From positions 1 to 56,537 of the IMG/VR virus record IMGVR_UViG_3300036806_000389: a stretch of DNA of 56,537 nt, one strand, 5' to 3'. A program made the translations under genes and the position numbers. A model generated the notes under the pieces. The model saw nothing but the letters and a program-made list of their open reading frames with translations, was not told where the DNA came from and did no database searches. The stretch comes from a virus. Positions 35,616-56,537 of the stretch are shown piece by piece; position 1 is the stretch's first letter, and each line of letters opens with the position of its first letter.

Positions 35616-36716
35616 TCAAGCGCCGAGCGCCTCAGCGAAGGCCTCACGTGCGGCGCGCAGGAGCTCGACGGATTCCTCGTCGGCATGGGAAACGAGCCAC
35701 GCGTGGAGCTCGTTCGGCGGCTCGGCGCGTTCGACGGCATCCCGCATGACGGCGAGGATCTCGAGCGGCCTGCTCCCTAGCGAGCGGCGGAGCTCCTCGG
35801 GGGCGCTCGCGAGCAGACGAGCGCCGGATGGCGTCCGAGGCCAGAGGACGAAGATCCGCCCGTATGGGTGACCGTGGTCCCAACGGTTGCCGGCGGGCCC
35901 GCGATAGTCATGGAGCGCTCGGGCGAGCGACGGGTCTCGCCGAGAGAACCGTTCGAACGCGTCGAGCACCCCGTCGTCGTGGACGACTCGAGGCCGATCG
36001 GCGGCCTCGAACGATGATGCCGCGGCCGCGTCGCCGGAGAGAGCGCGCCCAGAACTCCCTTCGCGCTCGCTCGCGCCGGCGCTGAACTCCGGCGGCGGCC
36101 CGTGCTTCGTGCTTCCGGTCGACCTCGCCGTGACCGGAATCGTGCACGACGCGCCGTCGCAGAGCGGACAGACGTCCTGCCGATTCTCGTCGAAGACCTC
36201 GGAGCAGCCGCGGCAGCGCGGGCAGCGCGCCGTGGTGAACATCGAGTCCATCACGCCCAGGACGACGTCGCCTGCTCCTCGGCACGTCCTGCATGTCTCG
36301 CCCCGGCGATCCTGGCCGCGGCCGAAGCACTCGTCGCAGGGCGATCGCTGAATGCCCTTCGCGCGCTTCGGAGCCTGGCGCGCGCCGCTCCCTTTGCACA
36401 TCGGGCAAACCGACTCTCGAGCATGGCGGGTGCGCAGATTTTCGCGAGCTATGGGGTCCTTCGAACTGTCGATCTTCCGCTGCCGGCGCTCGAGTTCGGC
36501 GGCGGATACGTCGCGGCAACCCGAGCCGTGGCACTTCGGGCATGGCCTCGTGAAGTTCCGCTCCTCGACGATCCGATCGCACATCGCGTCGTAGTTCGAG
36601 TCGAGCGGGGGCTCGTCGATGTCCCTCTCGAACTCCGCTTCGAGCCGCGCCTCGCACGCGTCGACGTCGTCAACGACCGGATCCGTGACCTCGACTTGAA
36701 CAAATTCGGCCATCAT
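35616..36716 (-). CDS. DnaJ-type zinc-finger protein
   Basis: The product is 366 residues from ATG 36716, after GAAAGGA. Between residues about 55 and 195 there are at least six CxxC motifs, several with the DnaJ CxxCxGxG form: CPKCHGSGCRD, CPMCKGSGARQ, CDECFGRGQ, CRTCRGAGD, CPRCRGCSE, CPLCDGASC. They likely bind three or more zinc ions. There is no J domain. The C-terminal region (about 230-366) is helical, with motif GNRWDHGHPYGRIFVLWPRT. It stands between replication and packaging genes. Role unknown; a DNA-, RNA- or protein-binding function is plausible. Confidence 0.7.
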   Translation of the reverse strand: MMAEFVQVEVTDPVVDDVDACEARLEAEFERDIDEPPLDSNYDAMCDRIVEERNFTRPCPKCHGSGCRDVSAAELERRQRKIDSSKDPIARENLRTRHARESVCPMCKGSGARQAPKRAKGIQRSPCDECFGRGQDRRGETCRTCRGAGDVVLGVMDSMFTTARCPRCRGCSEVFDENRQDVCPLCDGASCTIPVTARSTGSTKHGPPPEFSAGASEREGSSGRALSGDAAAASSFEAADRPRVVHDDGVLDAFERFSRRDPSLARALHDYRGPAGNRWDHGHPYGRIFVLWPRTPSGARLLASAPEELRRSLGSRPLEILAVMRDAVERAEPPNELHAWLVSHADEESVELLRAAREAFAEALGA

Positions 36717-36757
36717 GTCAGGGTTCCTTTCCAGCCGCCCGCGAAGCGCTCGAATGG

Positions 36758-36782
36758 AACCCGCCCACGTGGCGGGTTTTTT
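36758..36782 (+). terminator. Intrinsic terminator on the plus strand
   Basis: AACCCGCC (36758-36765) pairs with GGCGGGTT (36771-36778) over a 5-base loop and is followed by T to 36782. Direction is plus, opposite to the flanking genes. On the minus strand it lacks a T run. It may stop antisense transcription within the operon. Confidence 0.65.
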
Positions 36783-36784
36783 CG

Positions 36785-37120
36785 TTACAGCGGACCCGCG
36801 TCCCAGTCCGTCTCCGATCGCATCTTGCGGCGCCCTTCTCGCACGTCGATTGCGGATCGGCCTGGGAGAGTGAATCGAAAGTTCGGAAGTGCTCTCCTCA
36901 ACCACCCGATCACCCAAGGCATACGGGGATCCGGGGCAAATATCTCCCGTGAGAGCTGTACGACTATCGCTTCCTTGCTCGTGCACTGGCAGATCTTCGA
37001 CACGCCGCACACCGCGCACTTTCGCGGCGCCATGTGCCCCATGCTGCACACCTCCGCGCCGGGCGCGCGCCTCGCGCATTCGCTGCAGATCGGAAACTCG
37101 AAGTTCTTCGTCTTGCTCAC
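36785..37120 (-). CDS. Zinc-ribbon-like hypothetical protein
   Basis: GTG 37120 follows a strong GGGAGG, 4 bases upstream. The 111-residue product has eight Cys in the first 45 residues (FPICSECARRAPGAEVC, RKCAVCGVSKICQC), likely a zinc ribbon. A helical C-terminus with motif MPWVIGWLRRALPNFRF follows. It follows the DnaB helicase gene closely. The upstream extension of the frame is shadow. Confidence 0.65.
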   Translation of the reverse strand: MSKTKNFEFPICSECARRAPGAEVCSMGHMAPRKCAVCGVSKICQCTSKEAIVVQLSREIFAPDPRMPWVIGWLRRALPNFRFTLPGRSAIDVREGRRKMRSETDWDAGPL

Positions 37121-37140
37121 GGCAACCTCCCATCCGTCGG

Positions 37141-38562
37141 CTATCGCCCCTGAAACATCCCCGTCTGTCGTCGCGCGTACGGGTCCGCGTTGCCGAACGC
37201 CATGCTCGGCGCGTGGAACGACAGCGCGACGCTCCCGGCGGGCCCGTTCTTGTGCTTGCCGACGATGACCTCGCACTCCTCGATCTCCGTCGCGTCGTTC
37301 GAATCGCCGCGCTCTGCGCGCTCGTAGTACTTCGGCCGGAACGGGAAGAGGATCCCGTAGGCGTCCTGCTCGATCGCGCCGCTCTCGCGCAAGTCGCGCA
37401 TGATCGGCCGCTTGTCGGGGCGATCGTCCGGCCCCCGGTTGAGCTGCGCGTCGAGGATCAGCGGGCAATCGAATTCGCCGGCCATCCACTGGATCTCCCG
37501 CGACAGCCGCGCGACTTCGCTCTCTCGGTTCTCGCCTTTGCGCGACTGCGCGTCGAGGTGCTGCAGTTGGTCGATCGAGATCAGACCGAGCTGCAGCGAT
37601 CCGCACTGCATGCGCAGCTTCCCGACCGCCCGGCGAATCGCGCTCCGGATCTCACCGATCGTCGGCGCGACCAAGAAGTCGATCGAAAGCGGCAGCTTTC
37701 GCAGCCACTCGGCCTTCGTATACACGCGCTCCCACTGCTTTTCGGTCAAAGCCTGCGCAGCCTCGAGCGCCTTGTACGACACGCGAGCCGTCTGCGCGAT
37801 CTTCCGGAGCGCGAGTTCGCTTCGTTTCTGCTCGGTCGAGATCTCGACGACGAACATCTGCTCTTGCTGGCCGTCGCCGGCGGCGATGTTCGTTCCGATC
37901 TGCCCGGTGAGCGACGTCTTGCCCATGCCCGGGCGCCCCGCGACGATGTACGTCTTCCCGCGTTTGAGGCCGTTCAAGCGACTATCGAGCTCCGTGAATC
38001 CGGTTCGGATTCCGGGCGCCTCCGACTCGTTCCGCCGGCGCGCGTCGAGTTCGGAGAGCGCGTCCGGAACCACGACGGCCATCGTCCCGTTGTCGTCGAC
38101 GCCGACTCGATCCGACGCTGCGGCGTAGACGCCCTCCTCGACGCGCTGTGACCATTCCCACGGGTCGCCGACGTCGCCGTACCCTTCCGCTGCGTGACGC
38201 TGCAGCTCGGCCACCAGTCGCCGCTGGTGCGCCTTGCCGGCGACGGTGCGCGCGTGGTCGGCGAGGTTCGCGGTCGCAGGCGTGGAGTCGATGAGCTGCG
38301 CGAGGTACGGCGTCCCGCCGATCTGGCCGAGCCGGTCGCTGTCTCGAAGCACCGTGGCGACCGCCGTGACGTCGATGCCCTTCCGTTCGCTCTCGAGCCG
38401 CTCGATCGCTTCGAAGATCCGCCGATTGGCGTCGGAGTAAAACGCGCGGGAGTTCAGGATCGGCTGAATGTCGTAGAACCGCTCGGGCCGCTCGAAGATC
38501 GCCGAGAGCACGACGGCTTCGGCGTCGAGGTCGTGGGCTGGAATGCGCACGTTTTCGGTCAT
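37141..38562 (-). CDS. dnaB: Replicative DNA helicase, DnaB family
   Basis: The 473-residue enzyme has the DnaB N-terminal helical domain (AHDLDAEAVVLSAIFERPER, DVTAVATVLRDSDRLGQIGG). Its RecA-like core has Walker A AGRPGMGKTSL (about 208-218), Walker B LGLISIDQLQ, and the QLNRGPDDR loop. It unwinds DNA at the phage fork. The start overlaps the initiator gene as ATGA; the coupling supports joint replication roles. The upstream extension is shadow. Confidence 0.9.
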   Translation of the reverse strand: MTENVRIPAHDLDAEAVVLSAIFERPERFYDIQPILNSRAFYSDANRRIFEAIERLESERKGIDVTAVATVLRDSDRLGQIGGTPYLAQLIDSTPATANLADHARTVAGKAHQRRLVAELQRHAAEGYGDVGDPWEWSQRVEEGVYAAASDRVGVDDNGTMAVVVPDALSELDARRRNESEAPGIRTGFTELDSRLNGLKRGKTYIVAGRPGMGKTSLTGQIGTNIAAGDGQQEQMFVVEISTEQKRSELALRKIAQTARVSYKALEAAQALTEKQWERVYTKAEWLRKLPLSIDFLVAPTIGEIRSAIRRAVGKLRMQCGSLQLGLISIDQLQHLDAQSRKGENRESEVARLSREIQWMAGEFDCPLILDAQLNRGPDDRPDKRPIMRDLRESGAIEQDAYGILFPFRPKYYERAERGDSNDATEIEECEVIVGKHKNGPAGSVALSFHAPSMAFGNADPYARRQTGMFQGR

Positions 38563-39563
38563 CCGATCCCTTCGACGATCTTCGTCGGGTCGACGGCGCC
38601 GGAGATCTTGATTCCGCGCCGGCGGAGCTCTTCGGAGGCTTGCTGCGACTCGAACTCGACCTGCTCGTCGAAGGCTCGCTGGAGTTCGATCTCGCGCTTC
38701 GACCGGGCATCGGCGTCGCTCGGCGCCGGCTTCGACGGACGCCGCTTCGGGTCGTTCCAATCGCGCCGGACCCACTTCGCGACGGCCTGGTTCCACGCGA
38801 CGTTGGTTCGAACGTCCGAGCGATCGGCGGCATAGTGCGTGCGCGCCACCGCAACGATCGCGTCGATCGCCCACAAGGGAATCAGGCTGAGATTGAGCGA
38901 GGCTCTGGTCTCGTGGTCGATCGTCCACCCGGCGTGCATCGGGATCCGTCCGTATTCGTCCGGTTCCGGGGATTGGGTCGATCGCGTCTCCGCCGACGCG
39001 TCTCCGTCTTCGGCTAGGCTAGGCTCAGCTAAGCTAGGCAGAGCTAAGCTAGGAGTGACGTTTTGTGACGTCCGTGATTCCTCGTGACGATTCGTCACGG
39101 TTCGTGACTGATCAGTAACGGTGCGTGATGCAACGTCACGATTTGTGCTCTCTGGAGACTGCTCGTCACGGACAGTCGGCTGCGCCACGGAACTGTCGTC
39201 AGCGTCACGTGGCGTGACGACTCCGTCGCGCCTCCGAGCCCGAAACTCCGCCGCGCGCACCTTGTCGGACCGTCGTGCTGTCTGCCCTTCGAGCCACCGG
39301 GGCCATACCAGCTTCGAGTCCCGGATGATTAGAGTCTTCGTCCGAAGCAGACGATCAAGGCCCACCTCGACCACTCCGCGCGGTAGTCCGGTGACGAGCT
39401 CGATCGCGTCCACCGGAGAGTCGGCGCCAGGGTCGAAGATTCCGGCCCGATCCAGCTCGTAGTGCAGCTCGTGCATCACCGCTCGACCCTCCCACCCGAG
39501 GCGCCGATTGGTCGTGGTTCGCCGCGTGTAAAGTCGCGTGTACGGTTCGTCCTCGAAATCCAT
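38559..39563 (-). CDS. Replication initiator (DnaD/replisome-organiser-like)
   Basis: The 334-residue protein starts with a winged-helix-type domain (LGWEGRAVMHELHYELDRAG, LPRGVVEVGLDRLLRTKTL). A Ser/Thr/Arg-rich linker (about 110-185) includes three PSLAE-like repeats. A C-terminal helical part with WNQAVAKWVRRDWNDP follows. It stands directly upstream of dnaB with an ATGA overlap, like lambda O-P. The linker DNA carries a phased GTGACG repeat array that probably is the origin. A helicase-loading role is inferred. Confidence 0.75.
   Translation of the reverse strand: MDFEDEPYTRLYTRRTTTNRRLGWEGRAVMHELHYELDRAGIFDPGADSPVDAIELVTGLPRGVVEVGLDRLLRTKTLIIRDSKLVWPRWLEGQTARRSDKVRAAEFRARRRDGVVTPRDADDSSVAQPTVRDEQSPESTNRDVASRTVTDQSRTVTNRHEESRTSQNVTPSLALPSLAEPSLAEDGDASAETRSTQSPEPDEYGRIPMHAGWTIDHETRASLNLSLIPLWAIDAIVAVARTHYAADRSDVRTNVAWNQAVAKWVRRDWNDPKRRPSKPAPSDADARSKREIELQRAFDEQVEFESQQASEELRRRGIKISGAVDPTKIVEGIG
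39013..39052. repeat. AGCTAAGCTAGG-type tandem repeats
   Basis: Three copies of a roughly 15-bp unit built on GCTAAGCTAGG encode the PSLAE-like repeats of the initiator. They touch the GTGACG array and are less GC-rich than the surroundings. A role as the opening zone of the origin is possible. Confidence 0.55.
39055..39219. repeat. Helically phased GTGACG/GTCACG boxes (candidate origin)
   Basis: Boxes of GTGACG, GTCACG or close variants recur at about 10-base steps: 39055, 39065, 39074, 39084, 39094, 39104, 39115, 39125, 39135, then 39165, 39204 and 39214. They lie inside the initiator gene, as lambda iterons lie in O. Period 10 and mixed orientation argue for protein binding on one helix face. 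Confidence 0.7.
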
Positions 39564-56354: not shown

Positions 56355-56537
56355 ATGAATCCGAGCGATTTCGCAATGTGGCCCATCCTGGGAGCGATCA
56401 TCGAACAGGCGTGCGCGCGCATCTTCCTGGGTGAGGATCGGCCGCTCGACCTCACGGATGCAGACTTACGAGGAGCGAGCCTCGACGGAGCGAGCCTCGA
56501 CGGAGCGAGCCTCGACGGAGCGAGCCTCGACGGAGCG
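56355..56537 (+). CDS. Pentapeptide-repeat protein (3' end outside window)
   Basis: ATG 56355 follows GAAAGGA. After about 40 residues with a helical lead (FAMWPILGAIIEQACARIFL) come DLTDADLRGASLDGASLDGA-like pentapeptide repeats continuing off the window. The fold is a right-handed beta-helix. Some such proteins mimic DNA and bind gyrase, but this is not shown. The repeats are also almost identical at DNA level (15-bp unit). Confidence 0.75.
   Translation, partial: MNPSDFAMWPILGAIIEQACARIFLGEDRPLDLTDADLRGASLDGASLDGASLDGASLDGA
56474..56537. repeat. 15-bp tandem repeats in pentapeptide gene
   Basis: GGAGCGAGCCTCGAC is repeated at least four times without visible change, up to the window edge. 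Identity at third positions suggests recent slippage or assembly of a repetitive region. Confidence 0.7.

Follow-up and report, generated by a model that had tools for sequence, protein, structure and literature searches.

Replication origins that lie inside phage genes are already known. In phage lambda, ori-lambda is located in gene O, where dimers of the O protein bind the iterons, a neighbouring tract opens and DnaB is then loaded, as set out in the accessible part of PMC5043065. According to the available portions of PMC5703833 and PMC7145576, the origin of plasmid pSK41 occupies the centre of rep, the N-terminal domain of the initiator binds the iterons, and its C-terminal domain differs by host genus; the same portion of PMC7145576 identifies 4pta and 4pt7 as RepA_N structures. 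For phage 80alpha, the accessible text of PMC5499656 reports that ORF20 could not be complemented in trans and that ORF20 and ORF21 together replicate a plasmid, while an excerpt of PMC7924643 describes a putative lambda-like origin in Francisella phage KIRK, with four repeats inside the replication gene fhv_0043. Within the titles and abstract openings of the open-licence literature, we found no description of boxes spaced by 10 bp combined with a 5-bp array in phage initiator genes, and the available parts of PMC6669507 and PMC9394477 contained nothing relevant to box and pentamer arrays.

The DNA analysed here (hereafter the window) is the 56,537-base IMG/VR record IMGVR_UViG_3300036806_000389, from a tailed phage with portal, terminase and tape measure genes, a strongly matched integrase and a weakly matched repressor gene. 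Its initiator (replisome organiser) gene is an ORF of 334 aa at 38559–39563 on the minus strand, matching the PHROGs family phrog_1408 ('replication initiation protein', E = 4.8e-7) over residues 109–296. The product comprises an N-terminal winged helix (residues 1–113; 39225–39563, minus strand; delimited from alignment A3 and an AlphaFold2 model), proposed as the putative box reader, a repeat-coding linker, and a C-terminal region (residues 195–334; 38562–38981, minus strand), DnaT-like by weak profile match only and proposed as a candidate DnaB partner. A dnaB-type replicative helicase gene comes next (37141–38562, minus strand; PF03796, E = 1.7e-64; phrog_19, E = 1.3e-76), its ATG overlapping the initiator stop codon (ATGA). 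The gene after dnaB (35616–37133, minus strand) encodes a 505-aa protein whose CXXCXGXG zinc region is of the DnaJ type (PF00684, E = 1.3e-8). Host DnaJ and DnaK are required for DnaB release in lambda, and given that need, a phage DnaJ-like gene beside dnaB is suggestive. At the end of the record, a perfect 15-bp tandem repeat (4.4 copies, 56472–56537) runs up to the very last base and represents either a terminal feature or an assembly stop. Searches with tblastn among 50,697 phage records returned no match to the window initiator, to its C-terminal region or to the initiator of one relative (L154).

An earlier note on this DNA described an array of GTGACG/GTCACG-like boxes in the initiator linker next to dnaB, and this description holds. 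Positions 39055–39230 carry nine exact GTNACG boxes on a grid of about 10 bp (starts 39055, 39065, 39084, 39094, 39115, 39135, 39165, 39204 and 39214), ten exact GTNAC boxes (39055–39218, in reading frames 0, 1, 1, 1, 0, 2, 0, 1, 2, 0), and boxes with one mismatch both on the grid (39104, 39125, 39184 and 39225) and off it (39130 and 39209). The array offers about 18 grid places at 10 bp, with a mean box unit of 10.14 bp, and because the box (CGTNACG) is nearly palindromic, the mixture of GTGACG and GTCACG amounts to one site read on either strand. With at most one mismatch, strictly one phase and 18 consecutive 10-mers, the phased-box score was 7 in the window; the 20 simulations of its full length under a third-order Markov model all scored 4 or 5. 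Phased GTSAC pairs in the gene numbered 4; when its codons were shuffled synonymously 200 times, the mean fell to 0.56 (p = 0.005, the lowest value this test can give). Simulations and shuffles together rule out a chance origin of the box array. GC skew, which had been suggested as a check, showed no turning point at the array in the window.

The boxes starting at 39055 are only part of the feature, as a 5-bp array abutting them at 39014–39053 had been overlooked. Here, on the minus strand, eight pentamers directly follow the last box (GTCACT), and all eight match CYNWR (CCTAG, CTTAG, CTCTG, CCTAG, CTTAG, CTGAG, CCTAG and CCTAG on the gene strand). This array scored 8, whereas 60 synonymous shuffles averaged 2.8 (p = 0.016, again the lowest attainable value), and Tandem Repeats Finder reported a 5/15-bp repeat at 39012–39053. 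Both arrays sit between the segments coding for the N-terminal domain and the C-terminal region. Judging from the sequence, we consider it very probable that 39014–39230 is the replication origin of the phage, embedded where its own initiator gene codes for the linker, with boxes that would be bound by the N-terminal domain, pentamers that would be opened or held, and a C-terminal domain that would hand over DnaB. A compact in-gene origin resembling lambda O and ori-lambda had been suggested before, and it is the best-supported reading, though not a proven one. The pentamer array, the indication that the boxes accompany the N-terminal and not the C-terminal domain, a sister class with 11-bp spacing and a possible slow drift of the boxes around the helix go beyond that first description.

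Scans of the collection for four GTNACG boxes at 10, 11 or 12 bp returned at least 120 loci each; such arrays are common in the collection, and their densities at the three spacings are not comparable. When the window initiator was compared with all ORFs of 466 loci, 19 loci matched: the window itself, L001 and L002 (identical in DNA), and 16 others. Fourteen of these 16 relatives contain a 10-bp four-box array inside the gene, L005 and L010 have boxes 9–10 bp apart, and the matches listed by the 11- and 12-bp scans contributed none of them. With repeat codons masked, a search with just the first 105 residues recovered the same 16 relatives at E < 0.01. A separate N-domain sample, obtained with an alignment of five N-domains without the linker (A2), comprised 34 viral loci and two MAG loci (Burkholderiales and Chloroflexi) and overlapped with the box-selected loci only in the five seeds and their duplicates; after removal of duplicates and a truncated gene (L497) and addition of the window, 33 genes were retained. 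At least three phased steps, each within 1 bp of one to three times 10.5, were present in 31 of the 33 genes and, once the window and the seeds were excluded, in 25 of 27. The box unit ranged from 10.0 to 10.5 bp per gene (median 10.14 in the 29 genes with at least four units), close to one helical turn. The earlier claim that the boxes lie on one face of the helix is therefore fair as 'about 10 bp, roughly one face'; with mean spacing differing by gene, the boxes may spiral slowly and not keep strictly to one face.

Some linkers carry additional material. In L475 and L491 (also L171 and L480), an extra stretch that presumably resembles a GIY-YIG or T5orf172-like segment separates the N-domain from the array, which lies on its far side. 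The L483 linker has a motif directly before the boxes, which we take to be HNH-like and which is perhaps a homing-type insertion near the origin.

The second element recurs among the relatives, where the last box is mostly GTCACT (gene strand) and is followed directly by CYNWR pentamers (CCTAG, CCGTA, CTGTG, CTTAG and others). After an anchor of GTCAC, then T/C/G, C and C/T, which could be set in 30 of 34 rows, C recurred at every fifth base in 93, 90, 93, 83, 80, 66 and 63% of the 30 genes, figures that are favoured by the procedure because the anchor fixes the first C and, among several anchors, the one with most pentamers was taken. With these pentamer-favouring anchors, lag-5 self-identity past the box array was 0.53 versus 0.375 (z = 12.4). 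Three anchored genes (L481, L488 and L498) lack any pentamer. Summed across the 33 genes, with the position re-optimised in every shuffle, the pentamer score reached 159 versus 84.3 ± 4.3 in 100 synonymous shuffles (maximum 94), which places it 17 SD above them. Gene by gene, the floor of the test was reached in 14 of 33, and p was above 0.2 in eight (L479, L481, L484, L485, L488, L494, L498 and L499). A 5-bp unit does not fit a whole number of codons, so the pentamer array, which writes the SLAVPSLAVP tracts, cannot be put down to codon repetition; in aggregate it is constrained at the DNA level. A DNA-only search for the box–box–pentamer junction yielded eight contigs, every one of which carries this initiator: the N-domain profile was run on five (all E ≤ 2.6e-44), and the other three (L154, L155 and L191) were already members. 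The newcomers L517 and L519 matched none of the other loci compared.

One alternative accepts the boxes as an initiator-binding site and leaves the pentamers outside the origin, as a simple repeat prone to slippage, which a disordered linker can accommodate. Consistent with it, the short units past the array differ by branch (CYNWR, AGANN, ACAGAG and AGATAC), and the eight genes with high p values show little pentamer array. However, the recurrence of C at every fifth base, albeit favoured by anchor choice, and the aggregate excess over synonymous shuffles both argue against slippage, and the units within one array differ from each other, which would be unexpected from recent slippage. On balance, we regard this alternative as unlikely.

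If both arrays belong to the origin, as we prefer, copies of the N-terminal winged helix of the initiator would bind the CGTNACG boxes, one per helical turn, and would build a nucleoprotein scaffold ending at the last box, GTCACT. At the abutting CYNWR array, the strands would then open and/or one strand would be held, after which the C-terminal domain would pass on the phage's DnaB, the product of the next gene. The sequences themselves show the two arrays, their conservation as DNA, the junction between them and the occurrence of the box array together with the N-domain; binding, strand opening and helicase loading are inferred. With an AT content of 0.40 in the 60 bp past the last box versus 0.36 in the gene, the pentamer stretch is hardly AT-rich, and so is not a classical melting element; because its sequence and register are nonetheless preserved, a role of the pentamers as a specifically recognised single strand would be attractive. 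The origin reading itself is made likely by the occurrence of the same plan in lambda, 80alpha ORF20, pSK41 and the phi 11 gp15 arrays.

The AlphaFold2 model of the N-domain, based on the 42 N-domain sequences of alignment A3, is a confident winged helix (pLDDT 90.9). Foldseek searches with this model gave no strong match (best E = 0.15, a Crp/Fnr protein). VIA-align superposed it on the initiator entries 4pql, 4pt7, 5kbj and 4pta over 96–101 of 113 residues (rmsd 4.8–6.8 Å) with Z of 6.8–7.3, a range that is below the trust level of the tool and also holds general winged helices; the first row was a CRP-type winged helix, a CO-sensing regulator (Z = 7.5). RepA_N was absent from the PDB sequence search. 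The C-region could only be modelled poorly (pLDDT 68.5, from two sequences), and it had no PDB match; Foldseek with that model returned four rows in all, none of them DnaT (best E = 6.4). Residues 208–271 of the initiator matched the DnaT DNA-binding domain (PF17948) only weakly, with E = 0.012 and 15.7 bits, below the cut-off of 25. DnaT places five subunits on 10 nt, or 2 nt each, in the accessible text of PMC4132743, and the available part of a further DnaT paper (PMC13377028) leaves that picture unchanged. On this ground we dropped the idea that the 5-bp unit reflects a DnaT-like C-domain covering 5 nt; 2 nt per DnaT subunit, as given in that part of PMC4132743, does not explain it.

A natural domain swap indicates which part of the protein the boxes accompany. 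The C-terminus of the L001 initiator is 44% identical to the C-domain of the window, its N-terminus is different, and the closest DnaB among the loci compared belongs to L002 (E = 1.9e-103). The L001 initiator gene, in the only relative found to share just the C-domain, holds three scattered GTNAC boxes and neither phased boxes nor a 10-bp array. In this single swap, then, the boxes accompany the N-domain, and the C-domain accompanies the helicase. The same association bears on the possibility that the array serves the N-domain or a repressor as an operator of the replication operon, regulating its transcription and not the start of replication. An array of winged-helix sites inside an operon could block transcription, and the phage does have an integrase and a putative repressor. 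Nevertheless, the array lies mid-gene and travels with the N-domain of the initiator itself, and a second short-unit repeat is joined to it, as in ori-lambda and 80alpha gp20. An operator in place of an origin therefore appears improbable; autoregulation and origin function could coexist.

We give still less credence to a repeat selected at the protein level, in which a disordered tether rich in Val-Thr, Ser-Arg or Arg-Asp-His is what the linker needs and the DNA pattern simply follows from it. In its favour, the linkers have a repetitive protein sequence (RDVASRTVTDQSRTVTNRHEESRTSQNVTP), synonymous shuffles keep a residual excess at 10, 20–21 and 30 bp, and steps of 20–21 bp in the 33 genes are no commoner than in shuffles (25 versus 27.8). 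Steps of 10 bp, in contrast, number 139 versus 16.6 (mean of 50 synonymous shuffles), an eightfold difference, and those of 11 bp 19 versus a shuffle mean of 3.8. Moreover, the 249 phased boxes rotate through all frames (112/75/62), and linker residues, compared by eye, vary among relatives while the boxes persist. Tested one by one, 27 of the 33 genes had more phased GTSAC pairs than their synonymous shuffles at p ≤ 0.01; with the window and the five seeds set aside, 21 of 27 did. The six of the 33 that missed this level were L470 and L494, which have GTTAC/GTAAC in place of GTSAC, L489 and L498, with one phased step each, and L475 and L483. Since 10 bp is not a multiple of three, all frames are used and shuffling destroys the array, codon repetition is ruled out as its cause, and the protein-level explanation is largely refuted. 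The two refuting outcomes named in the earlier note thereby failed to appear: the boxes persist in relatives whose linker protein is different, and the pattern is not accounted for by codons. Least credible is a centromere-like partition site with repeats bound by a ParR/TubR-type protein: partition arrays often have steps of 10–12 bp, but no ParM, ParR, TubZ or TubR match was present among the 19 window proteins scanned with Pfam, and the array lies in the initiator gene and goes with the N-domain across phages.

The origin reading acquires a wider context from iterated searches with the N-domain. After eight iterations, the masked profile, which may have drifted, matched genes overlapping the array in 42 of 120 loci with 10-bp, 41 of 120 with 11-bp and 8 of 121 with 12-bp spacing, among the matches listed. 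Through such iterated searches, the window family appears as a possible distant relative of Phage_rep_org_N (PF09681): the window protein itself gave no PF09681 row at E ≤ 0.1, and L154 scored 17.7 bits (cut-off 23.3). At E ≤ 0.01, PF09681 was found in 10 of 34 members with 11-bp arrays (best 9.1e-49), 2 of 42 members of the window clade (best 0.0012) and 1 of 23 other 10-bp members. The idea that the 11-bp members are largely Phage_rep_org_N is ruled out by that first fraction, and members reached by profile without PF09681 may be distant kin or other winged helices. Among the 42 clade members, PHROGs searches at E ≤ 0.01 hit two different families, with one member each.

On a tree of 87 N-domains (60 with 10-bp and 27 with 11-bp arrays), built from few columns by a quick method and including many pattern-chosen rows, some of doubtful kinship, the box period needs 5 changes versus 23.4 in shuffles, with 0 of 500 as low; from an initial 105 rows, 10 that lack two equal steps, 6 with 12-bp spacing and 2 ties had been dropped. 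As second element, units of 6 bp (ACAGAG, AGATAC) are more frequent past 11-bp arrays and units of 5 bp past 10-bp arrays. This coupling gave a Fisher p of 3.9e-5 on 68 rows (18 weak-repeat rows dropped) and 0.0024 on 46 pattern-selected rows; only three phylogenetically independent pairs fall on supported branches, the sign test is empty, and the pairing of 10 with 5 bp and 11 with 6 bp is not established. Purine-rich 6-bp (in some cases 5-bp) repeats lie directly past the array in L286, L061, L324, L342, L336 and other 11-bp loci, where they encode ETETET and DTDTDT tracts; in 30 genes, the purine fraction of repeats past 11-bp arrays was 0.69 versus 0.54 in the rest of the gene. Short box runs occur in phi 11, Javan584, VEsP-1, A500 and phiRg519T2. 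No clear 10–11 bp array was present in Bacillus phage 035JT001, or in phi297, PseuP_224, YMC P54, Shimadzu and SOVA965; the search led to these last five mainly by way of the L191 C-terminus, and they therefore provide no test of the N-domain.

It is conceivable, though we would hold it only tentatively and with considerable doubt, that winged-helix phage initiators, including Phage_rep_org_N, share a bipartite in-gene origin. Such an origin would combine duplex boxes of one turn (10 or 11 bp) with abutting single-strand units of 5 or 6 nt, their lengths coupled (10 with 5, 11 with 6), as a counterpart of the DnaA-box and DnaA-trio arrangement, and the linker sequence of many phages would be dictated by the origin. 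If the origin reading is true, the origin of phages with this initiator could be read from sequence, as boxes plus an adjoining short-unit array in the linker. Likewise, linkers rich in VT, SR and RD, followed by SLAVP, ETETET or EIEIEI tracts, would be DNA sites that happen to be translated, and the locus would offer a small two-element system for DNA opening by an initiator that has no recognisable ATPase domain.

Compared with lambda O and ori-lambda, the window shares a repeat array within the initiator gene, between a proposed N-terminal reader and a proposed C-terminal partner domain. Lambda, however, has four 18-bp iterons, with annotated starts 20–24 bp apart, and a 40-bp A+T-rich tract, whereas in the 33 genes the commonest step is 10 bp, followed by 11 bp, unlike iterons of about 18–20 bp that are each a dimer site, and the pentamer tract of the window is hardly AT-rich, with no A+T-rich tract adjacent. 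Neither did the window initiator match Phage_rep_O, nor the iterated N-domain profile match lambda O. Phage_rep_org_N proteins (PF09681/TIGR01714) such as Staphylococcus phage phi 11 gp15 resemble the window in linker GTNAC boxes 10–12 bp apart, followed by a short-unit repeat, and in an N-domain related by iterated profile. In phi 11 gp15, GTAAC boxes lie 11 and 10 bp apart and GTTAC boxes overlap, before a GA-rich stretch; the protein was matched at E = 6.3e-24 in a 4-sequence search, with a profile that already contained Phage_rep_org_N members. The group differs in that several members have 11-bp boxes and 6-bp repeats, and in that the window protein lacks a PF09681 match at E ≤ 0.1. Among the RepA_N plasmid initiators (pSK41 and pTZ2162), pSK41 has its origin inside rep, and the window N-domain model aligns nearly end to end with 4pql, 4pt7, 5kbj and 4pta, though at a Z below the trust level; in contrast, RepA_N iterons are inverted repeats around a poly-A tract.

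In Staphylococcus phage 80alpha, as far as the accessible description goes, the origin is apparently embedded in the initiator gene ORF20, where the record also annotates a rep_origin, with boxes followed by TAATAA-type short repeats. Its gp20 was, however, not matched by the N-domain profile and belongs to another family, with 15/30-bp repeats that fit codons; that the best genetic case belongs elsewhere, with 15-bp repeats, weighs against the origin reading. Two loci outside the N-domain profile, L516 (80alpha, 2675–2900) and L503 (TP901-1 rep), have codon-compatible 15-bp linker repeats of about 1.5 turns. Phage KIRK, set beside the window by its partial published description only, differs in its four longer repeats and AT-rich region. 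The bacterial DnaA-trio has a 3-nt unit and an AAA+ initiator, whereas the window array has a 5-nt unit and its initiator showed no AAA+ match in Pfam; by analogy only, DnaA boxes with the DnaA-trio and the window array have in common double-strand boxes joined to an adjacent short-unit array.
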